A stretch of 64,000 bases of DNA from Gonapodya prolifera JEL478. Taxonomy: Eukaryota > Monoblepharomycota > Monoblepharidomycetes > Monoblepharidales > Gonapodyaceae. Below, in pieces: positions 7,232 to 57,600 of this stretch. The translations under genes were made by a program, and so were the position numbers. The number at the start of each line of letters is the position of its first letter. Position 1 is the stretch's first letter. The notes beneath the pieces were generated by a model, which saw only the letters and a list, made by a program, of their open reading frames with translations, was not told where the DNA came from and did no database searches. Where the stretch lies: NCBI GenBank assembly GCA_001574975.1, contig KQ965742.1, positions 377,696 to 441,695 on the forward strand, in the 5' to 3' direction.

Positions 7232-7312
7232 TGAAAAGGAGCAAATGACGTCACGGCCGCATAAGGTTGCTGTGCCGGTCACCAGTCCTCACCCATCGAT
7301 CGCACGACAACC

Positions 7313-10300
7313 ATGCTCACTTTTGGAGAAGCTCCGCCATCAGACAATCGCCGCGGCAGCGAAGATACCACTCAGGATCCGACTGCTGTTTCTATCCCAA
7401 CGATTACTGCTCCTGTCTGCGACTCACCCACATCGCAAAGAGACAGCGGTCCCGGAGGACGTGTCATCGTCGTATCCAATCGGTACGTAGATATGAAAAC
7501 TTCAAAGGATGATGATGCGAGTTATTTTGTCCCCTCCTTTCAGGCTCCCCGTATGCACTCCTTCACTGCATTTATCATAATCTCTTTTTGATGAGTTTTT
7601 CTCTTCAGATCACCATCAACAAGAAAGAAGGAGGTGGCTGGTCCTATCAAATGAGTTCCGGAGGTCTGGTCTCGGCTTTGAGTGGTTTGAAAAAAGAGTT
7701 AGATTTCCTGTGGGTCGGATGGCCGGGACTCGAGCTCAGTGAAGAGGACGCCTCCGTTGTCTCTCAAGATCTTGCGGAAAAGTTCAATGCTATTCCAGTC
7801 TACCTATCGGACAAGACTGCGGAATTACACTACAATGGATTCTCGAATTCAATCCTCTGGCCTCTCTTTCACTACCAACCCGGTAAATTGCTGCAATTTG
7901 TGTCTTAAGATTTGCTCACTAACAAAGTTCCACCAGGAGAGATGCTTTTTGATGAAGCCGCTTGGGAGGGTTATCAAAAGTGATTTTGAGATTTCAGTTG
8001 GAACCCCTGATGCCGAAATCATGTTCTATTCCCAAGGGCGAACGAGGAGTTTGCACGTGTAATCACAGAGATCCTTCGAGATGGAGACCACGTATGGGTG
8101 CGTCGAAATTTGAAAAACTGGAATTAATTCGTTTATGTCAGAGGCTGACAATGTCGCTGTCGTCTTATTAGATACATGACTATCATCTGTGAGTTCTAGA
8201 TTGATGTTCTTCCACGACTTATTCCGAATACACCCATGCAGGATGCTGGTTCCACAACTTCTTCGGAAAGCACTCGACAATATGGTCGTTGGAAGCTCTT
8301 CCTTTGCTCGAGACACCTCAAACAGCTCCCCTGATCGTGGAGGTGACAGGGATGAATCTGAAGCTGAAGCTATGGGAAATTTTGCTCAAACGATATCAAT
8401 TGGATTTTTCCTTCACACACCATTCCCATCCTCTGAAATTTACCGGTTGGTTTCAAAATCTGAAACAGGATATAGGAAAGACATCTCCCAATCATTTTGG
8501 TTCTGTTTCCTAGCGTTTTACCAGTCCGGCGAGAAATTCTTTTTGGAGTCCTTCAATCCGATTTAATCGGCTTTCACACATACGACTACGCTCGGCATTT
8601 TCTCTCTGCGTGCACCAGGGTCTTGGGCCTGCATGCTATGCCAAACGGAGTCGTGTTTGAAGGGCGTCTTGTGAGGGTATGTGGGTGATTTTGCAAGCGA
8701 CAATATCACTTGTAGTAAAATACTTGCAAACCCAGGTCGGAACTTTTCCCATTGGAATTGACCCCGAAAAGTATGTGAATGATGAAAAGTTTGAGAACGA
8801 ATCACACAATGAACCAAGGCTCACTCCAATTCACTTCTAAGATTCGAGAACCAATTGAGCCAAGAAGCTACGAAAAGGAGGATTAATGAGCTATCAAGCC
8901 AGTTCAAGGGTATTAAAGTGATCGTCGGAGTAGATCGGCTGGATTACATCAAAGGTGAGCAATAGAGGACCTTTCGACGGAGTTGATATGATTTGCTTGC
9001 ACAACAGGAGTGCCAAAAAAGTTTGAAGCATTTGAGCTGTTTCTCACGCGGCACCCCGAGTGGCGTGAAAAAGTGGTACTAGTACAAGTTGCAGTGCCAT
9101 CCCGGCAGGATGTTGAGGAGGTGGGTGCAGTTAGGGTGCTATTTCTCAGTGTCTTATCATTCTTTTTTTGCCAGTACGCAAATCTGCGGAGCAAAGTGAA
9201 TGAACTTGTTGGGCGCGTGAATGGAAAATTCGGCACCGTTACATATCAGCCGATTCATTTCCTGCATCGATCTGTGGACTTCACCGAGCTTGTAGCCCTC
9301 TACGCAATGGCCGATGCTTGTCTCGTTACTTCTTCCAGGGATGGGATGAATCTTGTGAGGTAGTCCGTGGCTCCTTCAACTGTTACCTGATTCACATACA
9401 TTTAAACAAGTCTTTGTCGCCTTACGAAGCTGCGAATATATCGCATCTCAGTCCCCTAAAGCTGGAGTTCTCATTCTGTCAGAGTTCGCTGGTGCTGCAC
9501 AGTCGCTCAATGGTGCCATCGTGGTGAACCCTTGGAGCTCTTCTGACGTATCCGAAGCAATTAAGGAAGCACTCGAGGCTCCTGAATATCAACGACGAGC
9601 TAGATTGAGGCGCATGACTCGTTATGTCAAGAAATACACCGCCGCATTTTGGGGTACCAGCTTTGTCAGCGAGCTCACGGTTAGTTGGTTTGATTTGCAT
9701 TTGCGAGTTGACGTATGTGTTTCGTATTGATTGAATGGCAAATCAAATCAGCGCATATCATCTGAGTACGACGCTCAAGTCGCCAACCGTCAACGCCTAA
9801 AGTTCAGAGAAGTTGCTAGCAGCTTCATATTTGCTGGAAATGCGCGTGTCATTTTTCTTGAAATGGACCTTATCCTGGGAGGCTCATCTGCCCATTCAGG
9901 CAGTGCTTTCACCGATTACACCAGCCCTTCGGTTCGGACTCTTCGTCTGCTCTCTTCTCTGACTGCAAAACCGGACACATATGTTTACGTGTTCAGTGGA
10001 AGAAGCAGGCAGCGATTGGAAGATTGGTTTGGGGTAAGTGACAAGCTTCTGGATTTCACATGACTTCCATATGCGTATTATTTGCTGTACAATAGGCGAC
10101 ACAAGTGGGATTGGTCGCGGAACACGGTAAAGCAGTTGACGCGTTTTCACACCACCAGTCAAATGATGCCCACATTTTTGAAACAGGCTGCTTTTATCGT
10201 CATCCAGGAAACTTGACGAGCCTCTTCAAAACACTCAGCGCTCGCCAGAAGGAAAAAATCAGCAAAGTGATCCCTTCTGTGTTAGCGGCCGATCAGAACG

Positions 10301-11348
10301 ATTGGGTGACACTTGCAGAGCATGTTGATCTATCGTGGGCAGGTGAATTAAGGGAAGATGAAGGACCAATCTGCTCTCAAATAAATGCTAATTTTATAGA
10401 GGACATCCGTCCTGTTTTTGACGCGTATGCTGAACGGACCCCTGGAGCGTTTGTCGAGGAGAAAGAGGTATACTGACGCCACCGTAAAGGGTATGTCCGT
10501 AGCTCACTCCAATTATATTAGATTGATCTGGCATTTGTTTACGGACGAGCGGACCCGTCACTTGGATCATGGCAAGCTGGCGAGTTGCTAAGCCACCTTG
10601 AAAAGGCCCTGTCATCCGTGCCTGTAACGATATATACTGGTGGGCATCCAGTGCGCTCGGCGATTCCGGCATTACATTTTACTACTTTCCCGTGATCTTA
10701 GGAAATCGCAGGATTGAAGTTCACCCCTCGGCAGTCGACAAAGGGTTTGCCGCACGAAACATTCTTCGAGATCTCTATCAAGTACTTGGATCTTCCAGTG
10801 GTGTATCGAAGCCCGGTGCTGAGAAGGGCAAGCCGCCGGTTTTCGACTTCATTTTATGTGGAGGTGGTGGTGGAGATGACTACGACCGGACAGATGAGCC
10901 CATATTCACACTGCTCAAGGATCCTTCACAATCGCTACCTGCTATTATTCAGCCGGGGCCAAGCTCAGAAGTTCCTCCCTCTCCATCTCGCTCAAGTGCG
11001 TACAAAAAGCCGCCAACGGATGACGAGCCTGGTACCTCTGATAATCTCAAGAGGTCGGGCTCCCAAAAGCAATTGAAAAAGGACCAACGACCAATATGGG
11101 ACGACGACACTTCCAAATGCTTCACTGTCAGAGCGGGTGAGCTCTGTGACGTATTGATTGGCATGTATTCTCTAACGCACACCCATCTAAACACAGGCAG
11201 CACTAAGCGGGTGACCGAAGCCCATTTCTATGTCAAAAGTGCACGCGATATTGAAGTTCTCCTGGAAACGTTGTCAGGTGCAGCTGATCCTTTGAGGAGA
11301 TTGGGTGTCCCGGACATACCCCTGGTCCGAAGAGCAACAACTGGTTGA
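7313..11348 (+). CDS. Trehalose-6-phosphate synthase with a degenerate TPP-like C-terminal domain
   Basis: A many-exon gene. The GT20 synthase domain is well kept: VVSNRLP, SGGLVSAL, WVGWPG, LHYNGFSNSILWPLFHY, HDYHLMLVPQLLR, GFFLHTPFPSSEIYR, GFHTYDYARHFLSAC, PIGIDPEKY, GVDRLDYIKG and SRDGMNLV. It makes trehalose 6-phosphate from UDP-glucose and glucose 6-phosphate. The C-terminal part resembles trehalose-6-phosphatase (VFSGRSRQRLEDWFG, GLVAEHG, GGGDDYDRTDE), but the catalytic LDYDGTL motif reads LEMDLIL, so phosphatase activity is doubtful. A regulatory role as in yeast Tps3/Tsl1 or plant class II proteins is possible. Exon 1 (7313-7482) is followed by a 7-nt exon (7544-7550) that completes SNRLP. 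An upstream ATG at 7245 is in another frame. Confidence 0.88.
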
Positions 11349-27400: not shown

Positions 27401-28978
27401 ACTGGTGGGTGGCACGGGTGGCACTGGGGCAGGAATGGTGGAAGCGGGAGGGGCCGCCGAAACGTCTCCTCCCCCGTCTCGGCACGCATTCATAACTCTT
27501 TATCCCGGTAAGTCGAATTCTGTTCAGTATCACTTGATCAATCGTTATTGATGTTTCTTTCCTTTGTCTTTTGGTTTCCACATATATTTCGCGTAAGAAC
27601 AACGGCAATGTCTCCGTGGCTAACACGCATCTCTCGTGTGATTTAGGCGGAGCGCGATGGTGAGCAGCCTCCTCGTGGCGCGCTCTGGTAACGTCGCGAT
27701 CGAAAGGTCGAGGCGGCTAATGCTCGCCGAGCCAATTCGATTCCATATTTGAACGTGAGTTCGGCCTTATGTGCTACTTTGCAGTACTCGTGGTTGACCG
27801 TCTCCTCGCCTTACGGTTGCTCTGTCGGGATGTTCGGAGTATCTTTGTTAGGTATTCCCCAAAGAACCTCGAGCGCTTCAACAAGCGATTTTATATTATT
27901 ACACGGTATAAATATGAGTTATTGTAAAAAACGTTTGAATGCATCGCAAGCTTCCATTACGAATAGTGCCACTGGCTTGAGCTCACCGACGAGAATCCGC
28001 CCCCACGCGTCACGTGGCTGCCGTGAGAGGTCTTGCGACGACGGAGGCTCCCCAGTCCGTGATCCTCGTCCTCACCGAATATTCCACCTCATCCCACATC
28101 ATCCAATGCCCGCCCAGCCGCCAGTGCGAGCACACCCTCGCCGAGGGGTTTGTCCTCGTTCAGCCTCAATGCATCATCGCAGAAGTTGGTCATGGTTTGC
28201 GCCAGCTGGTCCGTCTTGACTCTTGGAGTCCGAGATGACGTGCTCCCAATCGCCCAACAGAAGCTCGCGACGCGCAATATGGTCGATTATGCCTTAGATG
28301 GGAACATTTGTTCGTGTCGGAAGGTAAGGAGGTGCGCTGGGTGCGTCGCGATTTGAGTGGGGAGGTGGGAGGGGATGGATGAGTGCGCGAATGCATTTCT
28401 GTCAATTGGGTGTTTCTGGTGGAGATCGGACCCTACTTCGTGCGTCTTACTGAACTATGCGTTGGATCCACCTGCAGTGGTGTTCCACGAAACACTCAGC
28501 CGTCTTGTTCGTCTTTTTTCGTTCCTTGCGGATACTTTCCTTCGTCGTTCGCTAATTGGGTTTGGCATTCGCACCGTCTTCATCCCTAAAACATTTTTTT
28601 TTTTAGTATGTTTGCCAACAAGACCGTTTGATCGCTCTGTGGCGTCAGGGAAATAAACGTCTCGCGTATTATGGCGCTGATAAGGGAAGGGAGGGACGTT
28701 GGTATGTACCTGGTATATATGTATAATCTATGGTTTAAAATCTGATGTTATGCGGGGCACATAACTATGTACGCATGCCAAACTCCGTGAGGCGAATAAG
28801 GTGAACTCCTGATATTATTTGTCTGCAAAGGAAAATCCATGTACAAATGACCTGAACAAAACCGCCCTGAATGTCCCCTCCTGTGCCTCGTCATTGACGA
28901 AACAGGGACAGGAGTCAAGCTGACAAAAACCATACCTGACCGCACCCAGCCTTGCGTTCAAAGCAACATTGAGCCGCG
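24421..28978. other. Gene-poor stretch with only fragmentary coding signals
   Basis: About 4.5 kb in which I could assemble no confident gene. Protein-like pieces without a join are: reverse strand 25400-25840 and 24465-24740; reverse strand 27155-27493 (MFIDWWTERLNHRC); reverse strand 28089-28340; forward strand 26600-26815 (a hydrophobic Ile/Leu/Ser-rich run after SDVTNITISLIFLHI); and forward strand 27700-27930. A promoter-like AGCATAAAAACCCC with a pyrimidine-rich leader lies at 26125-26200. No tRNA, rRNA or transposon ends were seen. These could be decayed genes or fast-evolving genes with many introns. Confidence 0.5.
24465..25839 (-). CDS. Candidate hypothetical gene (fragmentary)
   Basis: Three reverse-strand open blocks could be exons of one gene. 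25545-25839 reads SDWFSLDVGSDG and FRFHQLLQENPALYYVDNVP. 25300-25500 contains ADVCLRCGDHFDG and LFDRQDGRRSAMRWLNGGQ. 24465-24700 reads YPLSPLLRRTVVHLVSTPIV and ends at a stop. Composition looks protein-like, but the blocks sit in different frames and I could not fix the splice sites. The CxxC is not enough to name a zinc finger. It may be a real lineage-specific gene or a relic. Confidence 0.3.
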
Positions 28979-30646
28979 ATGCAACGATCGCGCGCCGACG
29001 CCATGCCCATCCGAGCGCCGCCGCGAGCCTACTCCCCCGCTCCTGCACCCGCTCCGGCCACTTTTTTTGACGGCGTCCCAGTCCCAGTCCCACGGCAACT
29101 GACGTCGGCGACTTCTGATGATCTTCTCGGAACGACCGCGTACAGCGCTTCGAACCATTCGCACAGTTCCGACTCCCTCGGCTCATCGCCCAGTGGTGGT
29201 TGGGCCTATGGAATGAAAAAGTTTGTAATCGCAAAAGGCCGGTGGTCCTTTTCCTTTGTCGCGTGGTCGATCGTCACGGGCGTTCTGGAGATCTCGCTCG
29301 TGTTGTGGCAGTTGGCACTTTCGATTGGATGTAAGTCTGGAGGATCTGCGCCTGTTCAAACGTGACATCGCGGATTAAAGTCAACAATCAAATGACCCTG
29401 CTGAAATCAGACTACACTTCACACGAAATTGGTTGGTACAACGATCTTTGACTCTGTTCGTTTGGGGTCATTTCTCTCATGCCTTTTTTGGTTTCGGCAG
29501 TGCTCAGCATCGCGTCAATGGTTGCAGCAGTATACTCCATCTGCCTCGCTATTAATGCCACCAAAACCGAGAACATATTCATGGTAAGTCACATGTACTT
29601 ATATATTCAGCGTAATATGAACTCACTCAAACCAAACCTCCAGGTATACGGCGCGATATTGTTCTCCACTATCGTCTTTGTCGCATCCGTGCTCGTGGAC
29701 AAGTCCGAAGCCGATCTGTGCCGGATCTGGGACACTCTCGTGCTCACGCTCGGGGGCTCCCCAACGGCTCTTCCACCCACCGACTCGGCGTACTGGTTCG
29801 CAAAGTACCTTACCGGCGTCTCGTTCCAGTCGCTCGAGATCTGGGGCGACAGAGTCAACGCAATTCGCGTGGCCACGTGTGTTGTCACGGGGCTGCACCT
29901 GGTCGGGCAGCTGATCATGGTGCCTGGGATTTGGCGCGAGGTGCGGTGGAAGGTGTTTAAGAAGATTGGCGCGGATCGGGGCATGCGGTGGAGGTACAGG
30001 TGAGTCTTTTATCATGGAAAAGCTCTTTGTGGGCGTGAGCGGGAGGCTGAGAGATCTCAACAACCAACCCAAAACAGCATCTATACCCTCCTCATCGTGC
30101 AAGTCCAAGTAAACGTCTACTTTGCGGCGCTGGCCGGATGCTACTTTATTTCGCACGGGTGGTGGTCGTACTCCCGGACGTTCCTCATCATCACGACTGG
30201 TGGTTACGTCGTGTACACGTGCGGTCTCGTCATGCTCACGTGGGCGGTTCGACGCGAGAAGCGTGCACCCGTAGTGGTTTTCTTGTTCTTGGCGTTGTTC
30301 ATCGAGGGGATTCTCATGATTCAACTGGAAAAAGTGAGTTCAAGCAATCAGCGGTCGGTGGCCAAGAACTGACCCTTGGTGGTTGAAGCTCTGGCCAATT
30401 GCACCGTTCAACGACGACAAATACTTTTTGATCCGCGAAGTCGGAACCTTCTTTTGCGTGTTCAACGTCTTCCTCCTTGCCGCATGCATGTTGACAACAA
30501 CAGCGTGTGCACTTAACTTTGGCGGCGGGCTCCGAAAGCATGTTGATGGCGTGGCGATTGAACTGGGAACGACCACAACCGCAAAGGGAGCACAGAGAGG
30601 GACAGCGGACGTACTCAAGCCAGCCGAGGGGTGGACTCTTCACTAA
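28979..30646 (+). CDS. Multi-pass membrane protein, unknown function (UPF0658-like?)
   Basis: About five exons (28979-29331, one ending at 29582, 29643-30000, 30077-30332, 30389-30646). The cytosolic N terminus (~80 residues) is Pro/Ala/Ser-rich. Hydrophobic helices follow: FSFVAWSIVTGVLEISLVLW, VLSIASMVAAVYSICLAI, YGAILFSTIVFVASVLV, ATCVVTGLHLVGQLIMV, YFAALAGCYFI, FLIITTGGYVVYTCGLVML, VVVFLFLALFIEGILMI and FFCVFNVFLLAACMLTTTAC, about eight in all. The last is followed by ALNFGGGLRKHV, a motif I associate with fungal Golgi UPF0658-type proteins. That link is tentative. It could equally be a 7TM-like receptor or transporter of fungi. The introns interrupt between helices. Confidence 0.72.
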
Positions 30647-30969: not shown

Positions 30970-33900
30970 ATGGTGGACGATCGCCCCAGCGCCGCGATTC
31001 CGTTGCTTCATCGTAATCCGTTTCCGCCGACTCCACCTCCACCTCACACCAAACCCGCGCACCGCCACCGCCCACACCCTCGTGCACCGCTCGCACTCCT
31101 CACCCTCGTTTTCCTACTCATCGCGTGCCGTAACATCCACCCATCGCTGGCGGCGCTGCAGGACGGCTCGTTCGGGTTCGGACGGTGGTACTACGAGAGT
31201 TTGGAGCTGGATAAGACCGGGTTTTATGTCGGGAAGCCGGTGAGCGTCGTGCGGCCGAGGGTCGGGTCAGGAGAGTGAAGATTCGGGCGTGGAAACGTTG
31301 ATGGACGAGGGGAGGGGACCCCTCGGAGCCGTAATTCAACGCCCGAAACGAATTGCGTGGTCTAGGGTGTGAAAACAGAGAGACAGATGAGTGATTTATG
31401 CCGCCGCGCAGTGGCAATTGTTCTATTTTGGAGGAGAATGGACATGGTGTTTGACGGAGACGCTGCCCTACACACGGAGCGTCAGTGAAATGGGAATAGG
31501 ACTGACATTGGATACGTATATAAGTGTCATTGAAAATGGAGTGACGGTGGTTGGAAGTGATACGAATGATAGTGGAGGCCGTCCTAGATAGGTTGGAAGT
31601 GATATAAATGATACTGGAGGTTGTTCTCGTTTGAGATGGGTTGGAAGTGGCATGAATGATACTGGACACTGTTCTCGTTGGAGATGGGCGGGAAGTGATA
31701 GAGGATAGGAGGCTGTTCTCTTTTGTGGTTGACTCATGCACCAGTCTCATCCCAACCCGTCCAGTTCCGCGCCGTATACCGCTCCCCCGCCAGCGCCATC
31801 ACATGGTCCTACCCCTCCACTTGCACCTTTGCCGCGCTGACCCCGCTCGCCACACCCAACGACACCGTCCAGTTCACATGCACCGTGCGGGGGCCAAACT
31901 TCTTCTCCGTGTACGCCAACAACGCACCCGCATTGACGGACTCGTTCTACGTCACAATTGACCCCCCGCCAGGGTGCTACCAGTGGTACTTTGTCGCCGC
32001 CCCCGTCAATACATCAAAGGAGATCGATACGGTCGCCAGCGACAGCCTGGGCGCCCTCGAACCCGGGAGCAGGGCAACGGCAAGGTTGTGGATTGTCGAT
32101 CCAGCGCATTTGTCGGCGGTGGAGGCGGCCAAGACGGCGAGGGTGCCGGGGGATGTGAGTTGGTTGAGGGTGCGCGTGTGACGCTCCCGGAGCGGGGGGG
32201 CGTGAGCGTGAGGGTGTGACGCTCGCGCAAGGTGGGGTGGAAAGAGATTGAGAAATATCAGAGGCCTAAGCACGAAGTGCTGACCGAGGCCGTCACTCGG
32301 GGCGTGCATCGAGGCCTAAGGGACCGCACTCGACTCACCCTGCTGCTGCTACTGCTGACCGTCCTACTCGTCACACTCAAACCCCCCTTCCAATTTACAC
32401 CTCCACAGACATCCAAGCAACTCACTTTAAGTCTTGAAACCCTCGGCGACGTGCCCCTCTTCTCTTTTCCCACCCTGCACGCCCTCACAAACCTCTCCCT
32501 GTCCTTCGACACTGCCATCTCCGCATGGCACCTGCTCTTCACAACACCCACGTCGGGGGGCCTCGTCGAACTCAGCCTATCGTCTCGCGGAACCGCCGTC
32601 CTCGGATGCCGTGTCGCGGACACCGTCGTGGACGTCCCCATCGCGGCGTACGCCACCGCAGAGGCAATAGGGTTCCCGCGTGCCCCGGTGCAAACACTCA
32701 CCCCGCCCGTGCCCGCCTTCGACATCGTAACGGACCCATGTGCGGCGACGCTGCAGGTGGCCCTGTTGGGGGGCACGCGATTCCTGTTCTCGCACCGTAG
32801 CCTCGGTACCTCCGTTACTCCCATCTACACCCTTCCTGCACTCCCGGGCCTTCCGTCCCCGACCTCCCTCCAGTTCGCAGCGCCAAACCCGCGCGGGATT
32901 GCGCTCCTCGTGGACGGCGCCGTGTTCTTCACGCCCGACACCATCTTTTTCGTCCGCGCAACGGGGATTCCCACAGGTGTCACCATCACCGCGCTCCGCG
33001 GGGCGCCCGCATGCGACGACTCGCAAGGCCCGCTCGGAAACGTGTACAACAGTGCCATTTTGGCCTGGTCCGCCGGGTCCACGACGCTGTACTACTCGTT
33101 TGACGGAGGCGCGTCATTTGCAAATTCGACCGCGGCGCTTGCCGACACAACGCTGGTCGCGTCCTCGATTGCCGACGCGGCAACACTGCACGTGCAGCAG
33201 CGCGTTGTTGTTCTCGTCGCGACCGCGACGGGGAAGCACGCCGTCGCGATGCTGGACCCGGCCACGACGAGGTGGAGTGATGGCCATGTGTTCGCGTTGG
33301 GAGAGGTTCTTGGGTCGGGGAAGCCAGGCGCCGTCGCCAAAATGGCGGGGATTGCGAGCGGGAGCGTGGAAGTGATGGTGTGGGGGGCGGGGCTGTTTTA
33401 TAGGTGGGGTTGATCACTCCCCCTGCCGTTCTTATCATCAACCTTGCATCCGTAACCCTCCAACCCGTCCGTTTCTCCTCCTTCCATCCACTCCGGCTGC
33501 CTAAGTCCCAATGGGGGTTTGTCTTTCTTCTCGATCCCGCTCGTCAGCCGAGACCCCTTCCGCCCTGCCGTCCAGCTGGATGCCGCCGAGTACGTCCGCG
33601 ACATGGACACATCAGAAGCCGGCGCGTGGATTGCGATCACGTCCACAAATAGGTACATTACGTTGCCATCTCTATCGTCAATTACATGGTGGTGGTAGTG
33701 AAAGTCACCTCATTCGTTTGCTTGGTTGGGGTACTGGCAGGCTCTTCCACGGTAAAACTGGGCTCTCGGATGTCGTGGAGATTGCAGGAGGGCTGGTTCC
33801 TAGCGATGGTGAGTACCCGCAAGGAGCGCAAGGACAAGTTCCCACCCGAAAGCCTGAATATTTTTCCGTCGTAGTAATATCGCTCGAGTTTGACTACTAC

Positions 33901-35649
33901 GACCGAGCCCGGATCACAACCCCCGTCACGGCCAGCGCGCCACCGTACGTGAGCGTGAGGTACCTTCCTTTGTCGAACGAAGTGCGCAGTCCGAGGTGGG
34001 TTGGGAACGTGGCGGACTTCGCTTGTGCAGTTGCTCTGACCCGAACGTGGTAGGCCGCCACTTGCCCTCAATCCTCCAGAGACGTGTCCATATACAGGAA
34101 TGTCTGGGAACCTCGAGCACCAATACATTATTGATGTTGGTGAGAATGGTTGTCAAGGGCGGGGGAATACGTTCTCGAGGTGGAAGACTTCTAACTATCC
34201 CTTCTTCTGCCTGGTGTGTTTCCCTCCAGATGAAAACTTTAATTTCTCCGTTTCGATAACACCACAAGCAGGCTTCTCCAATGCGATCTCGGTGCGTCTC
34301 AATCTGTGCGAAAAAGCATACGTGCCGCAACTTTAAGCCCCATTCAAACGACAGGTCACCTTTTCAAACGTCTCCCTTCTCGATATGATGTATAGTGAAA
34401 CGACAACCGTCTCCTTACAAGCTTCGAGCTCGTCTATCGTCACACGCACGCGGACGGTCTTGATCACATCCCAGTCTTACAACCGAACAGGAAAATCTGA
34501 CATCCGTGTTATTCCTCACGCTGCAAATTTGGCGTGCACGGAGGGGCAGCAGGTAGGAAGCGAAGCTTTCCGAGAGTGTTCAAGTCCGTTCACGCGACAC
34601 TTGACGCGTGCCTTAAGGTGTCGTCAGTCATGGTCGGGTGCCATCCTGGCCGGCATTTACGCTACCGATATTCCAGCGCGCATTCTTACGACTGTGCTAC
34701 GGCTCCGGCTTCGATCACGTACCCCAAGGGCTCGTATATCGCGGACTGGCTGACTGGAGCGACAGGAACAGGAGATCTTGTAAGTACACGGGAGTCATCC
34801 GTTACAAAACATCCGATTCCATCCACATTGTTCCTCCTCTCATCAAGGTGGTTCCTTATAACTGTGCCTCGTGGGGAACACCAATCTCGGCGTATTATGC
34901 TTCATCTTTCCGACCCACGTTCGACGTCTATGACGGAACTACATTCGTCAAGTCTGTAGATGCGGATCTTGTCATTCACGAAATGTATGGTAGAGAGCCA
35001 TACTCTTACAACACGACGGTGGGAGGGGTGAGTGCACCTTTCTGCACGAAACAAGGGAAACTGCAAACCTGTACTTGTTCAAAGGCCGGATGCTTCAAGC
35101 AGCCTCAGACGTGGGAGAAAGTGACGGCACAAAGGCCGTATCCCTATCCTTTTGATGTTTGGTCGGCACAGGTGCGTGCACCAGATGAATATTGGTTTCC
35201 AGTTGAAGCCATCGTGACCGTTTGCGATCCCCTAGAACTACGAGCCTTGCTACCTAAACGCGGGGTTCGGCAATCTTTCGAACCTGGACACCCTCACCGA
35301 CACGTCTGCGGAATATGAAATAATAAATGGAACGAACTTCAACGCTCTACACTGGTTGGGTGGCTCCGACGTGTATTTAATTTTCCAGGCAAAAGTTGTC
35401 GACCCAACATTCAGGTAGGTGAATCAATGTTGCAAAAAATTCTACAAAATACTAACGCTCCTTTGCATTAGTTATTGCACCTTGCAAACGACATTTGTGG
35501 TCCACGTCTACGGAGCTCCATTGACGATCGGGTTGCAGCTGGGGATAGTGTTTGGACTCATTGCCGGGGTATTTTTGGTTCTCGCCGTATCATATCGATT
35601 CTATCGGAAGTTGCATGTCAATGAGTTTGCAAAAATCAAACCCGAGTAA
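30970..35649 (+). CDS. CatSper auxiliary subunit (delta/epsilon-like), single-pass ectodomain protein
   Basis: A large, many-intron gene. Start MVDDRPSAAIPLLHR, then a signal-anchor (ALLTLVFLLIACR). The ectodomain begins SFGFGRWYYESLELDKTGFY; after a 525-nt intron come RAVYRSPASAITWSYPSTC and propeller-like strands up to LFYRWG (33413). The decisive part is C-terminal: VGCHPGRHLRYR, YNCASWGTPISAYYASSFRP, FDVYDGTTFVKSVDADLVIH, EPYSYNTTVGG-AGCFKQPQTW, NYEPCYLN, and FQAKVVDPTFS-YCTLQTTFVV followed by HVYGAP. One membrane helix follows (GIVFGLIAGVFLVLAVSYRF), then a short basic tail. This order matches CATSPERD/CATSPERE, which cap the sperm-tail CatSper Ca2+ channel. Delta and epsilon cannot be told apart by eye. 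Exons between 33420 and 34560 are partly approximate. Confidence 0.82.
31549..31730 (+). repeat. Minisatellite, ~4 units of 42-48 bp, in an intron
   Basis: Units starting GGTTGGAAGTG recur at 31549, 31591 and 31639, with a degenerate fourth (GGCGGGAAGTG) near 31686. Each continues ATGATA(C/G)TGGA and an interior GTTCTCGTT. The array lies wholly inside the 525-nt first intron (31240-31764) of the CatSper-like gene. Confidence 0.85.
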
Positions 35650-35682: not shown

Positions 35683-37347
35683 CTACAAAACGTGTCCGTG
35701 TTCGAGGTGCACTTTCAACGCAGGAATGGTTTTGTACTCTTTACCACAACATCGCAAGTTGCGTTTCAGCATCTCTTCGTAGAAATTTTTGTCGTACTGG
35801 AATATGGAATGAAGATTACTTTGAAGTCCGTAATATCTGATAAGTTCTTAGCACTCACCTTCACACATCCTGCGCTCTCCAATAAATCAACTATCTCTTC
35901 AAATGGTTTGAAGAACTCGGTGTTGAACTGAAGCGGTGAAGGCGAGTTGAACGGGGATTATTAGAACACTGCCAAGTGTCATTGAGGGACAGAATTCGCA
36001 CCGAATTCCAATGTTTCTTGTTCTTCACGTACAACATGTCGCGAGTTACGACATGCATGTGAAGTTGGCGCATCGAAGGTATGGCATGAAAGCCAATCTT
36101 GAACTTTAGCCGAGGGTCCTGGGATTCATTTCTAATCGAGACAGTCTCAAGAATGAACGGGGAAAAACGAATCAGATAAACAACACACTCTCGCACTAGT
36201 ATATCAGCCCGTTCCTTCTGTAGTTAGGATTCAACAAGTGGGATTTATTGCCCAAAGGGGAAATGGCTCTTGCTTACCATCGCGTTCAGCAGCGGTAGCT
36301 CACCACGGGTTAATTGAGAGACCCCGTGAATATGGCACCGTGGCATCACAAGAAAATGCTTTCTTCCTTTGGGGTACTTGTCCTCAGCTACTACCAACAC
36401 TTCATCGTAATAAACGACTCCAGGAGTTGTCGCAGGGTGATCGACATAAGGAAGCAGTGCTTCGGACCAAGACATTTGATATTTTGCAGCCTGAGAGCTC
36501 CCCGTATTTCTCGTTTGCTTGGATGTAACTTGTTGCAAAGGAGAGTTGTTTGGCTTTGCGGACGAGCCTGGTTTAAGCCATCCAAGAAGGCCGTGCTCCT
36601 CTGACATGACCGTCAGATTGCGTGTGAACTCAGTCGCATTGCAAAGCACTCACTTGGCCGTCCAAACGTGGGAGTCCCGGAATTTATTAGCCGTTGAAAC
36701 TCAAGCAATCCAGCTCTCCAAGATTGCCTCAGCTCATCTCGAACAACGTCCATATCAGTGAGAGCATCCGGCTTTTCGGCATTCATATTCGGGACTTTGA
36801 TGAGGATCAAAGCTTCAATACCTTCATCGGTGTGCAACAGAGAGAACTTGTCAACGAGAATTGATTTCGCGACACCCGCAGCTGTTGTCTTGCCCCCGAA
36901 AACGGTGTGGGTAACGTTTCCTGCTGCAAACATTTGACGAGAAGACGAACAATTGGCCAAATATCTCCATGTGACTTCCGCAAACGCGTAATTTATGCCC
37001 TGAGCGGTCGCTGATTTAGCTCTCCACAAATCGCCCAACAATATGTGGAGGCGACCTTCCATCGAATCGTGATGTTTCCCAAGAAACGCTGTCCACTCTT
37101 CCAGAAACTGGTCGACCAAGGTTTGTTCTCCAACAAAAAGGATAAGCTCAAAGGTGTTTGTCCCGTGCTCCTTGAGAAAACGATGAATCTCCTCAACGGC
37201 GATCGTTGTTGCTAAATATTGATCGATGCGATGCTCCCCAGCACCGAGAAGACCGAACCCAAGTCGATTGGGGGAGACGATCGAAGATGTTAAAGATTCC
37301 GATGTTCTTTGCCGCTTAGATGGTCGTTCTTCTCCCTCGGACGACAT
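35683..37347 (-). CDS. Aprataxin-like protein: macro domain + HIT + C-terminal zinc finger
   Basis: Reverse strand. After a basic leader (ERPSKRQRTSE) comes a segment with macro-domain features: LHILLGDLWRAKSATAQGIN, NYAFAEVTWRYL, KVPNMNAEKPD. The HIT part follows: YDEVLVVAEDKYPKGRKHFL, PRCHIHGVSQLTRGELPLL, GFHAIPSMRQLHMHVVTRD and KNKKHWNSV, the aprataxin signature. It ends with EFFKPFEEIVDLLESAG and RCCGKEYKTIPALKVHL..GH. Aprataxins remove 5'-AMP from abortive DNA ligation products. Coupling to a macro (ADP-ribose-binding) module resembles plant bHLH140-type proteins. The zinc finger has adjacent cysteines (CC) instead of CxxC, so zinc binding may be altered. Its stop lies 34 bp from the convergent CatSper-like stop. 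Confidence 0.8.
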
Positions 37348-54625: not shown

Positions 54626-57600
54626 CTATTTCACGGCAACTGACTTCCTTGCGGCTTTCGACCTGGTCATACGAGTCGACTCTGGAGGTGATATCCGAGG
54701 TGGTTGAGCAACAGAAGCTCGCCCTATACGTTTCCTGGGCGCTGGAACAGGAGGCTCCATCGTTGTCTTCGCTGGTACGGCATCCACTTCCATTCTTGCG
54801 GAACTGACCTCCGCCACCGATCCAACCTCGGATACGCTGGGCAGGGGTCTCCGCGAAACGCTGACAGGAATCATGCTTCGTCGCTTTGCCTTCTTCGTTG
54901 GGCCGGGGGGAGAAGGCACAGTCGTTGTTTCCACGACTGCTGTCGACGCCTGTTGTTGGTCCGCTCGCTCCGAAAGACGCGGGCTCAGCACGAGGCCGAT
55001 CGCCCCTGCCGACGCGGCGGCGACACGGTCTGCCCTTCGACGAGGGCTATCGAGACGCGCGACGAGGTCAGACCGCAGACGGTCATTTCTAGGTCGAACA
55101 CGAGGCGTGACAGCAGGTGCCGCATCCAAGTCATCCGGGGGAAATACAATGTAATTGTCAGGATGAACATTTCTGCTCTTTGGAGTTGATTCAACCTCCA
55201 TGGCGTCAACACCAAAAGGTGCTTTCTGGAGAGTGATATCAGGAGACTCATAATGGTGTGGAGCAGCGGCAACTGGAGCATCATCTCCACTTTCTCTTCG
55301 CCGCTTCTTAGCACTACCTAGTGCTATTGCATTTGCGAATGGGATGGAAGGAGGCGGTGGGCTCAAAGAAGGTGGAGTGACTGGTGCTGCCCCGTTTGAG
55401 AGTGTGGGCACTGGAGGTGGGAGGCGTTGTGCTGATAGATATTTGCCGAAGTCCAGCTTGTGCAACTCCATATCAGTGGCCTTTTGGAAGTCCGCATCGT
55501 CTTCCCTTTCACCAATCGGATCATCGTTTTGGGGTACTTCGTCGGGCCCATCTTCCAATTCGAATTCGGTGAACTCGCCATCTTCATCCTCGGTACCATT
55601 AGCAAGAGCATCATCTCCAGCGGGCCCTCCACCGTGCTGTATGAATTCCTCCAGGACTCGGATCGCCTCTTCCCATGTTTCAGTTAAACGCGTGTCGTCT
55701 TCCCGCATTCTCGCCCGCGAAACAATACCGACAATCCTAAGAAGGGCCGTAACAAAGTCTCTGGTTGCCCTTCCGTCCGCAAACTCCCCATAGAGTTTTT
55801 CGAGCACTTCGTATCGGTTCTGATTATCGTCCCGTTCGTGCTCTGCTCGGATCAGGTGTACCTCAAGGGCTTTTGGACCTTCAGAAGGAAGAAGATTCGA
55901 AAGACGCTCTAGTGCTCCTTGGACTCGCAATGCGGCCCGTCTATGGGTCTCCATGCGGGCGATGATAAACTTCAGGCGCTCCTCAATAGCGTGTACTGCC
56001 TGCTCTGTGAGTTGCCTCACGGTGACAAGTTCAGGAACGTCTCCTTCATCCCCACACGCAACTTCCAAAAGAGTTTGCAGAGTGGAAAGGCGGTCCTCCA
56101 ACAGTAGTTTCCGGACATCGTAGCGGTGGACGGAAGAGCGGTGAGCGCGAAGCTTTTTGTACAGTGTTCTGGTTCGTTTGATCGCCTCTGCAGCAGGGGC
56201 AGAGCCGATGTGGTCTGGCGAATTCCAGGCATCGTCTGGGATAATTTCAGTTGCAGGGCTGGACGCTCCCAATTGAGATTTGAGTTCGGTAACCTGATTA
56301 CGAAGATCCTAGACCCGCACAGTAATGGGAATGGGGTTGACGTGCCCAAGAGTGAACCCCTGTCATAAATTCCTCACCTCGATGATTTTCCCGTACTCTC
56401 CAATATGTGAGTCCACATCCACAGTGTTCTTTTGTATCTTTGTTCGAATATTCTTCGCTCGATTCGCGTACTGTAATGTGTTGTGGGTCTCCTCGTAGTG
56501 AATGCTGGCAGGGCTGACGGCTGCGATCATGACCACACGGCAGTTCCCCCCAAGGGAGTACTTGAGCAAACGAGTCAGTTTCGAGTCTCTGTAAGGAACA
56601 TGAGACGAAGTCGCAGGATTGCATAGCGCGTTGATACAGTTGCCAAGAGCGAGGAGCGACCTAGGAAAGCACAACATTGATCAGTTTCGTCTATTCGACA
56701 ATAGTCATTTGTACTCACCTGTTGATTTTTGCTCCCTCCTGCAGCCGATCTCCCCTGTTCTTCGTGACACTCGCTCGCTCACTTCCAGCCAAGTCGATAA
56801 TAGAGAGGACAGCAGTGTTCCACGATGCATGGGTTCCTGCCATCCGATCTTTCGTCCGGACATGAATTTGCAGAACAGCGTGACTCCTGGAACTAGCTTC
56901 ATTTGCTTCCGTTGGAGCTCTTGTACGGTTGTTGTTTCCATTGATTAGCAGCCGCATTATGTGGTCAACGTCGCGGGGACTGTGATGGGAAAGTCCAGAG
57001 ACCTGAACACTGACATCATCCTCTCGAAGCTCAAGGCCAGTTGGAGGCGCAGAGTCGGGAGCTAAGAGGTCCCTGATAGTCTCGTTGCTGGAAAGGTCGT
57101 TGTAGTAATACGAAGATAGGGTGTACTTTTCTCAGAAACTCACTAAACCTCAAGGTAAGAGACTGATGCCTCTGTGATTCGATCATTTCGAGAATCCCGG
57201 ATGCATTGAAAGAGGTCCCGCATGGTTCGAAAAATAACGCCTTGATTTCCGCCGGCAAGGACGAAAAATTCAGAGTTGCACCATTCACTCAAAGTTCCAC
57301 AAAGACGTACCGGGATCATTCTGAGTACCCGTTATTGTATGAGTCTTTCCACAGCCAGTGGCACCATAAGCGAATACCGTGGCGTTAAACCTATGGGAAA
57401 CCCGAGTGGTGGTTATGAAAACTGTAATTTGAGAAAGCAACTGTTCCTGCGCACCCGTTGAGGACTCCTTCAATCAGAGGCTTCGTCGTATTCTCATAGA
57501 CCTCCTGTTGCGTCGCGTTTTCGTCCTTTTTCCCACAGGAACGAGCAGAGAGTGTGCAGTCAGAAAGGTTTCGGTGTCCCAAGGAAAACATTGCTCCGAC

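Follow-up and report, generated by a model that had tools for sequence, protein, structure and literature searches.

In mouse, the ectodomains of the CatSper beta, gamma, delta and epsilon subunits form a canopy whose roof consists mostly of their beta-propellers, and according to the accessible part of the same source the complex disappears altogether in mice that lack any one of the reported pore subunits or of the other membrane subunits (PMC9205950). The CatSper subunits co-evolve (PMC12638846), and CatSper epsilon dates to early eukaryotes (PMC5362262). The available passages of PMC13358043 report CatSper channels in some flagellated fungi, with CATSPER1 and CATSPER2 among the orthogroups specific to these organisms, and indicate that the complex is not universally retained. 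Allomyces macrogynus appears in a published survey list (PMC5362262), two oomycetes harbour CatSper homologues (PMC4820453), and none of three Ca2+ channels annotated in P. parasitica resembles CatSper2 (PMC12223298). The accessible portions of PMC4685582, PMC6660944 and PMC11289002 contain nothing on fungal CatSper, and our search of the available literature found no publication pairing CATSPERE with fungi. CatSper is hard to study because heterologous expression of functional channels has not been achieved (PMC5362262).

We analysed a window of 64,000 nucleotides from the genome of Gonapodya prolifera JEL478, in which a preliminary description had recognized a CatSper auxiliary subunit gene. 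The implied surprise of finding such a gene in a fungus was overstated, as CatSper in flagellated fungi and an ancient CatSper epsilon are both in print (PMC13358043, PMC5362262). The locus resembles those published cases in being a CatSper gene of a zoosporic fungus, and the presence of CatSper in such an organism is expected from the surveys.

The CATSPERE-like gene and its surroundings

The gene occupies positions 30970-35649 of the plus strand of the window. Manual splicing on GT-AG borders gave 14 exons encoding 1040 residues plus a stop codon (Table 1), and these limits coincide with a model running from ATG to stop, with GT-AG introns and no internal stops. Eleven of the 13 introns measure 57-102 bp; the first two, at 525 and 254 bp, leave room for a small exon that the model may lack. 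The acceptor of exon 7 was picked among several in-frame solutions for the exon 6-7 join, and we took the 58-bp intron because the remaining introns past exon 3 fall between 57 and 102 bp. The reading frame also stays open across intron 11 (57 bp, 35028-35084), but the alignment with mouse CATSPERE has no insert at that position.

Table 1. Exons of the CATSPERE-like gene, in window coordinates.
Feature	Coordinates	Strand	Remarks
Exon 1	30970..31239	+	Start codon; possible signal peptide ~31081-31140
Exon 2	31765..32154	+	N-terminal domain region; CATSPERE_NTD2 match (below cut-off) starts near 32077
Exon 3	32409..33403	+	CATSPERE_NTD2 match ends ~32462; presumed beta-propeller, inferred from position
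Exon 4	33506..33652	+	Splice model
Exon 5	33741..33808	+	Splice model
Exon 6	33875..33995	+	Splice model
Exon 7	34054..34139	+	Splice model; acceptor is one of several in-frame options
Exon 8	34230..34291	+	Splice model
Exon 9	34355..34552	+	Splice model
Exon 10	34618..34779	+	GCHPGRH; CATSPERD-E_C match starts near 34753
Exon 11	34848..35027	+	WGTPISAYY, RPTFDVYDG, EPYSYN; CATSPERD-E_C domain
Exon 12	35085..35171	+	CFKQPQTW; CATSPERD-E_C domain
Exon 13	35236..35414	+	NYEPC; CATSPERD-E_C domain
Exon 14	35472..35649	+	HVYGAP; membrane helix ~35524-35589; short cytoplasmic tail; stop

The ordered CATSPERD/CATSPERE signature that had been read from the DNA is present in full in the spliced protein, with all eight motifs in the claimed order: GCHPGRH starts at residue 786, WGTPISAYY at 842, RPTFDVYDG at 855, EPYSYN at 883, CFKQPQTW at 896, NYEPC at 923, DPTFSYC at 978 and HVYGAP at 993. 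The single membrane helix proposed to follow them corresponds to the most hydrophobic stretch of the protein (approximately residues 1000-1021, with a peak of 2.59 at residue 1003). A weaker hydropathy peak (1.75 at residue 39, approximately residues 38-57) could be a signal peptide, a reading that is not proven because a segment at residue 384 scores as high (1.77).

Immediately upstream of the gene, a multi-helix membrane protein was recognized by eye at 28973-30646 (+), and its frame 29452-30000 gave no Pfam match. Downstream, the gene adjoins a HIT/DcpS_C domain protein (36245-36649, -), which looks aprataxin-like by eye. The window also harbours a protein with cyclic nucleotide-binding domains (589-2484, -; 1e-20), exons resembling trehalose-6-phosphate synthase by eye (7265-10476, +) and a kinesin motor domain (56366-57473, -; 5.1e-30 on frame 56366-56680, with further exons by eye). 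As to the RSPH1 and IFT81 genes that had been named as flagellar neighbours, a MORN-repeat protein (1e-21) could be RSPH1, and the IFT81 assignment corresponds to an IFT81_CH match of 23.3 bits (8.3e-5), below the cut-off of 27.4. By their sequences, these MORN and IFT81-like proteins appear to fit a flagellate.

Fungi make lysine via the aminoadipate reductase pathway. Eight of the ten matches to the fungal-type aminoadipate reductase profile lie on contig C8, in profile order and spanning positions 1-1365 of 1390. None of them singly reaches the whole-protein cut-off of 1030.1 bits, and stops interrupt two of the eight, as is usual for matches that run across introns. As this family also matches 12 of 14 control genomes via shared domains, never over the cut-off, only the order and length of the matches count. 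Taken with the putative flagellar genes of the window, this apparent aminoadipate reductase fits a zoosporic fungus.

Family membership of the encoded protein

A Pfam scan of the 1040-residue protein returned CATSPERD-E_C as the single family above its cut-off (residues 825-1032, 208 residues; profile positions 16-214 of 215; 6.1e-34, 117.8 bits against a cut-off of 27.4), providing the profile match to CATSPERD/E that had been proposed as a check. CATSPERE_NTD2 was the one family below its curated cut-off (22.3 bits against 27, 1.4e-4). No Pfam propeller family was matched in the protein, including the delta-type propeller PF15020. A search of PDB sequences with E values up to 10 gave five matches, namely two CATSPERE chains (1.1e-34 and 1.7e-34), two CATSPERD chains (2.7e-19 and 4e-19) and one chance match at 0.14. 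The values for CATSPERD-E_C and for mouse CATSPERE exclude chance for the C-terminal domain. The protein is thus a member of the CATSPERD/E family, and it scores nearer to epsilon than to delta.

Mouse CATSPERE (7eeb chain H) scores 122.9 bits and aligns with both residues 86-401 (15.0 bits, i-Evalue 0.041) and residues 756-1030 (110.3 bits), whereas mouse CATSPERD (7eeb chain G) scores 71.9 bits, with the C-terminus alone contributing 71.8 bits through the CATSPERD-E_C domain and the other aligned piece (-2.4 bits) being noise. The weak N-terminal alignment was found with CATSPERE chains only. The higher score of CATSPERE and its being alone in aligning, weakly, at the N-terminus point to the epsilon type; the choice that the preliminary description had left between delta and epsilon thus falls to epsilon by a comparison of scores. 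The fungal and mouse epsilon proteins have in common the C-terminal domain and helix, their overall size (1040 residues and 985 in the PDB chain) and the N-terminal pattern CY-x-WYF (CYQWYF in exon 2, CYLWYF in mouse), but the fungal ectodomain is strongly diverged, as seen from the 15.0 bits of its N-terminal alignment.

In the genome, CATSPERD-E_C gave two matches, both corresponding to exons of the window gene, and no second C-terminal domain of this family was found by this exon-by-exon search in six frames, which a gene made of very small exons could escape. PF15020 did not match the genome, a null that does not show absence as this profile is also unmatched in all 14 control genomes. As judged from these searches, no CATSPERD gene was found in the genome and the window gene is CATSPERE-like.

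The single gene with the shared C-terminal domain might alternatively represent an undivided ancestor that predates the duplication into CATSPERD and CATSPERE and is neither epsilon nor delta, a scenario with which the later appearance of delta in evolution (PMC5362262, in its accessible part) would agree. We consider it improbable, since the N-terminal region shows weak similarity to CATSPERE and to the CATSPERE_NTD2 model and the C-terminal score favours epsilon (110.3 versus 71.8 bits); moreover, a sole ancestor with the epsilon architecture would be named epsilon anyway. We therefore retain the assignment to epsilon.

Other CatSper subunits and candidate pore subunits in the genome

We searched the genome (47.56 Mb in 207 contigs) for further subunits. 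The profiles suggested earlier for CATSPERB and CATSPERG both found their targets. A CATSPERB gene on contig C8 has an open frame of 980 residues with a CATSPERB_C match of 1.9e-27 and, in the same frame, matches to CATSPERB_2nd (28.1 bits against a cut-off of 27) and, under its cut-off, to CATSPERB_head (21.5 bits). On contig C10, CATSPERG_C (PF22846) matched twice within a single locus, both times above its cut-off (6.0e-9 and 7.3e-8), and there a CATSPERG_Ig-like match below cut-off was found as well. CATSPERG_beta-prop (PF15064) had no match across the genome, yet CATSPERG_C was found, which indicates that a null from one domain model can be misleading.

For the pore, the Ion_trans profile gave at least 40 matches in the genome. 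Those in C80:26839-31210, C13:491129-496137 and C2:144006-148992 look like four-domain Ca2+/Na+ type channels, from the spread of the matches alone, and nine places outside these clusters were inspected. Three channels have as their best CatSper chains CATSPER2 (contig C62; 122.6 bits, CATSPER4 82.1), CATSPER4 (contig C18; 102.3 bits, CATSPER3 81.6) and CATSPER3 (contig C1; 81.8 bits). Four-domain Cav/Nav chains outscore these (best 141.2, 119.6 and 134.4 bits, respectively), an uneven comparison because such chains offer four domains each. Single-domain bacterial channels also match the C18 channel, with up to 75.5 bits. All three channels keep the T-x-D-x-W filter. Among the matches listed, they are thus candidates for single-domain pore subunits of the CATSPER2, CATSPER4 and CATSPER3 types. 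Of the four pore subunits whose search had been suggested, three therefore have candidates, with the proviso that Cav/Nav chains score higher, and CATSPER1 was not found.

The region of the C18 channel has a second copy on contig C25 (85.5% identity across an alignment of 4182 positions in which 84 gaps open, and a further block of 81.3% over 1317). In this duplicated block (C18:380500-387000 and C25:111000-117000), the CATSPER4-like channel lies beside what by eye resembles a ubiquitin-like conjugating enzyme. The C25 copy of the channel looks broken because its filter lies outside the open frame of its S6.

CATSPER1 was not found among the Ion_trans matches listed, at least 40 in number. Its filter pattern occurs at seven places in the genome, as many as in the reversed control, none of them with a channel-like frame. 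Mouse CATSPER1 as a query found five places, all already among the Ion_trans places. The CATSPER2-like and CATSPER3-like fragments of the genome itself, used as queries, each retrieved 11 matches, among which a place on C6 (E 0.19) was the single new one; it was dropped in the absence of a channel-like frame. A divergent CATSPER1 could be hidden beyond the Ion_trans matches listed, mouse CATSPER1 being a distant query.

Other Ion_trans places were set aside as pore subunits: in the frames listed, those on C16, C89 and C59 were read by eye as K+ or cyclic-nucleotide channels, and those in C136:9000-17000 and C4:866500-873000 as voltage-sensor-only proteins of the Hv1 type. Two similar units of the latter kind appear by eye to lie in tandem on C136.

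The putative channel complex and its significance

It is highly probable that the CATSPERE-like protein is CatSper epsilon, as identified by its sequence, and likely a canopy part of a flagellar Ca2+ channel, a role that we infer. CATSPERE would carry a large ectodomain and be anchored in the membrane by a single helix at its C-terminus. By homology, its ectodomain would pack with those of beta and gamma to form a canopy above a heterotetrameric Ca2+-selective pore, and its helix would dock beside a pore subunit, presumably in the flagellar membrane of zoospores or gametes. Ca2+ entering by this route might then alter the flagellar beat and thereby change the swimming direction, in line with the Ca2+-gated steering of the zoospore flagellum suggested in the preliminary description.

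The fungal set resembles the described CatSper complex in the presence of beta, gamma and epsilon and of candidates for CATSPER2, CATSPER3 and CATSPER4, and differs from it in that delta and CATSPER1 were not found in the genome. A tent without delta is not without precedent. One conceivable, if doubtful, arrangement is a reduced CatSper, in which beta, gamma and epsilon would form a delta-less tent above a pore of three kinds of subunits, one of them used twice in place of CATSPER1. If true, it would reveal which components the complex can do without.

That CATSPER1 was not found in the searches above counts against a working channel; the mouse complex needs every such subunit, as reported in the accessible part of PMC9205950. 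The unmatched propeller models, the CATSPERE_NTD2 score under its cut-off, the higher Cav/Nav scores of the three channels and the ectodomain hydropathy peak at residue 384 also weigh against the preferred reading. A relic, in which leftover subunits assemble no working CatSper, would accord with this negative result, obtained with the channel profile, the filter pattern, mouse CATSPER1 and two of the genome's own channels, and with the broken look of the C25 copy, but it is highly improbable given that the epsilon gene is open across its 14 exons, that the beta gene keeps its long open frame, that the CATSPER4-like copy on C18 retains its filter exon in frame and that the search covered the Ion_trans matches listed, beyond which CATSPER1 could lie.

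Retaining CatSper epsilon of a flagellar channel as the preferred reading, we see the value of the locus in its contribution to one well-resolved, largely complete CatSper set. The parts missing from the fungal set would indicate which subunits may be later additions, and a zoosporic fungus with beta, gamma, epsilon and at least three pore candidates may offer a single-celled system for the older role of the channel.
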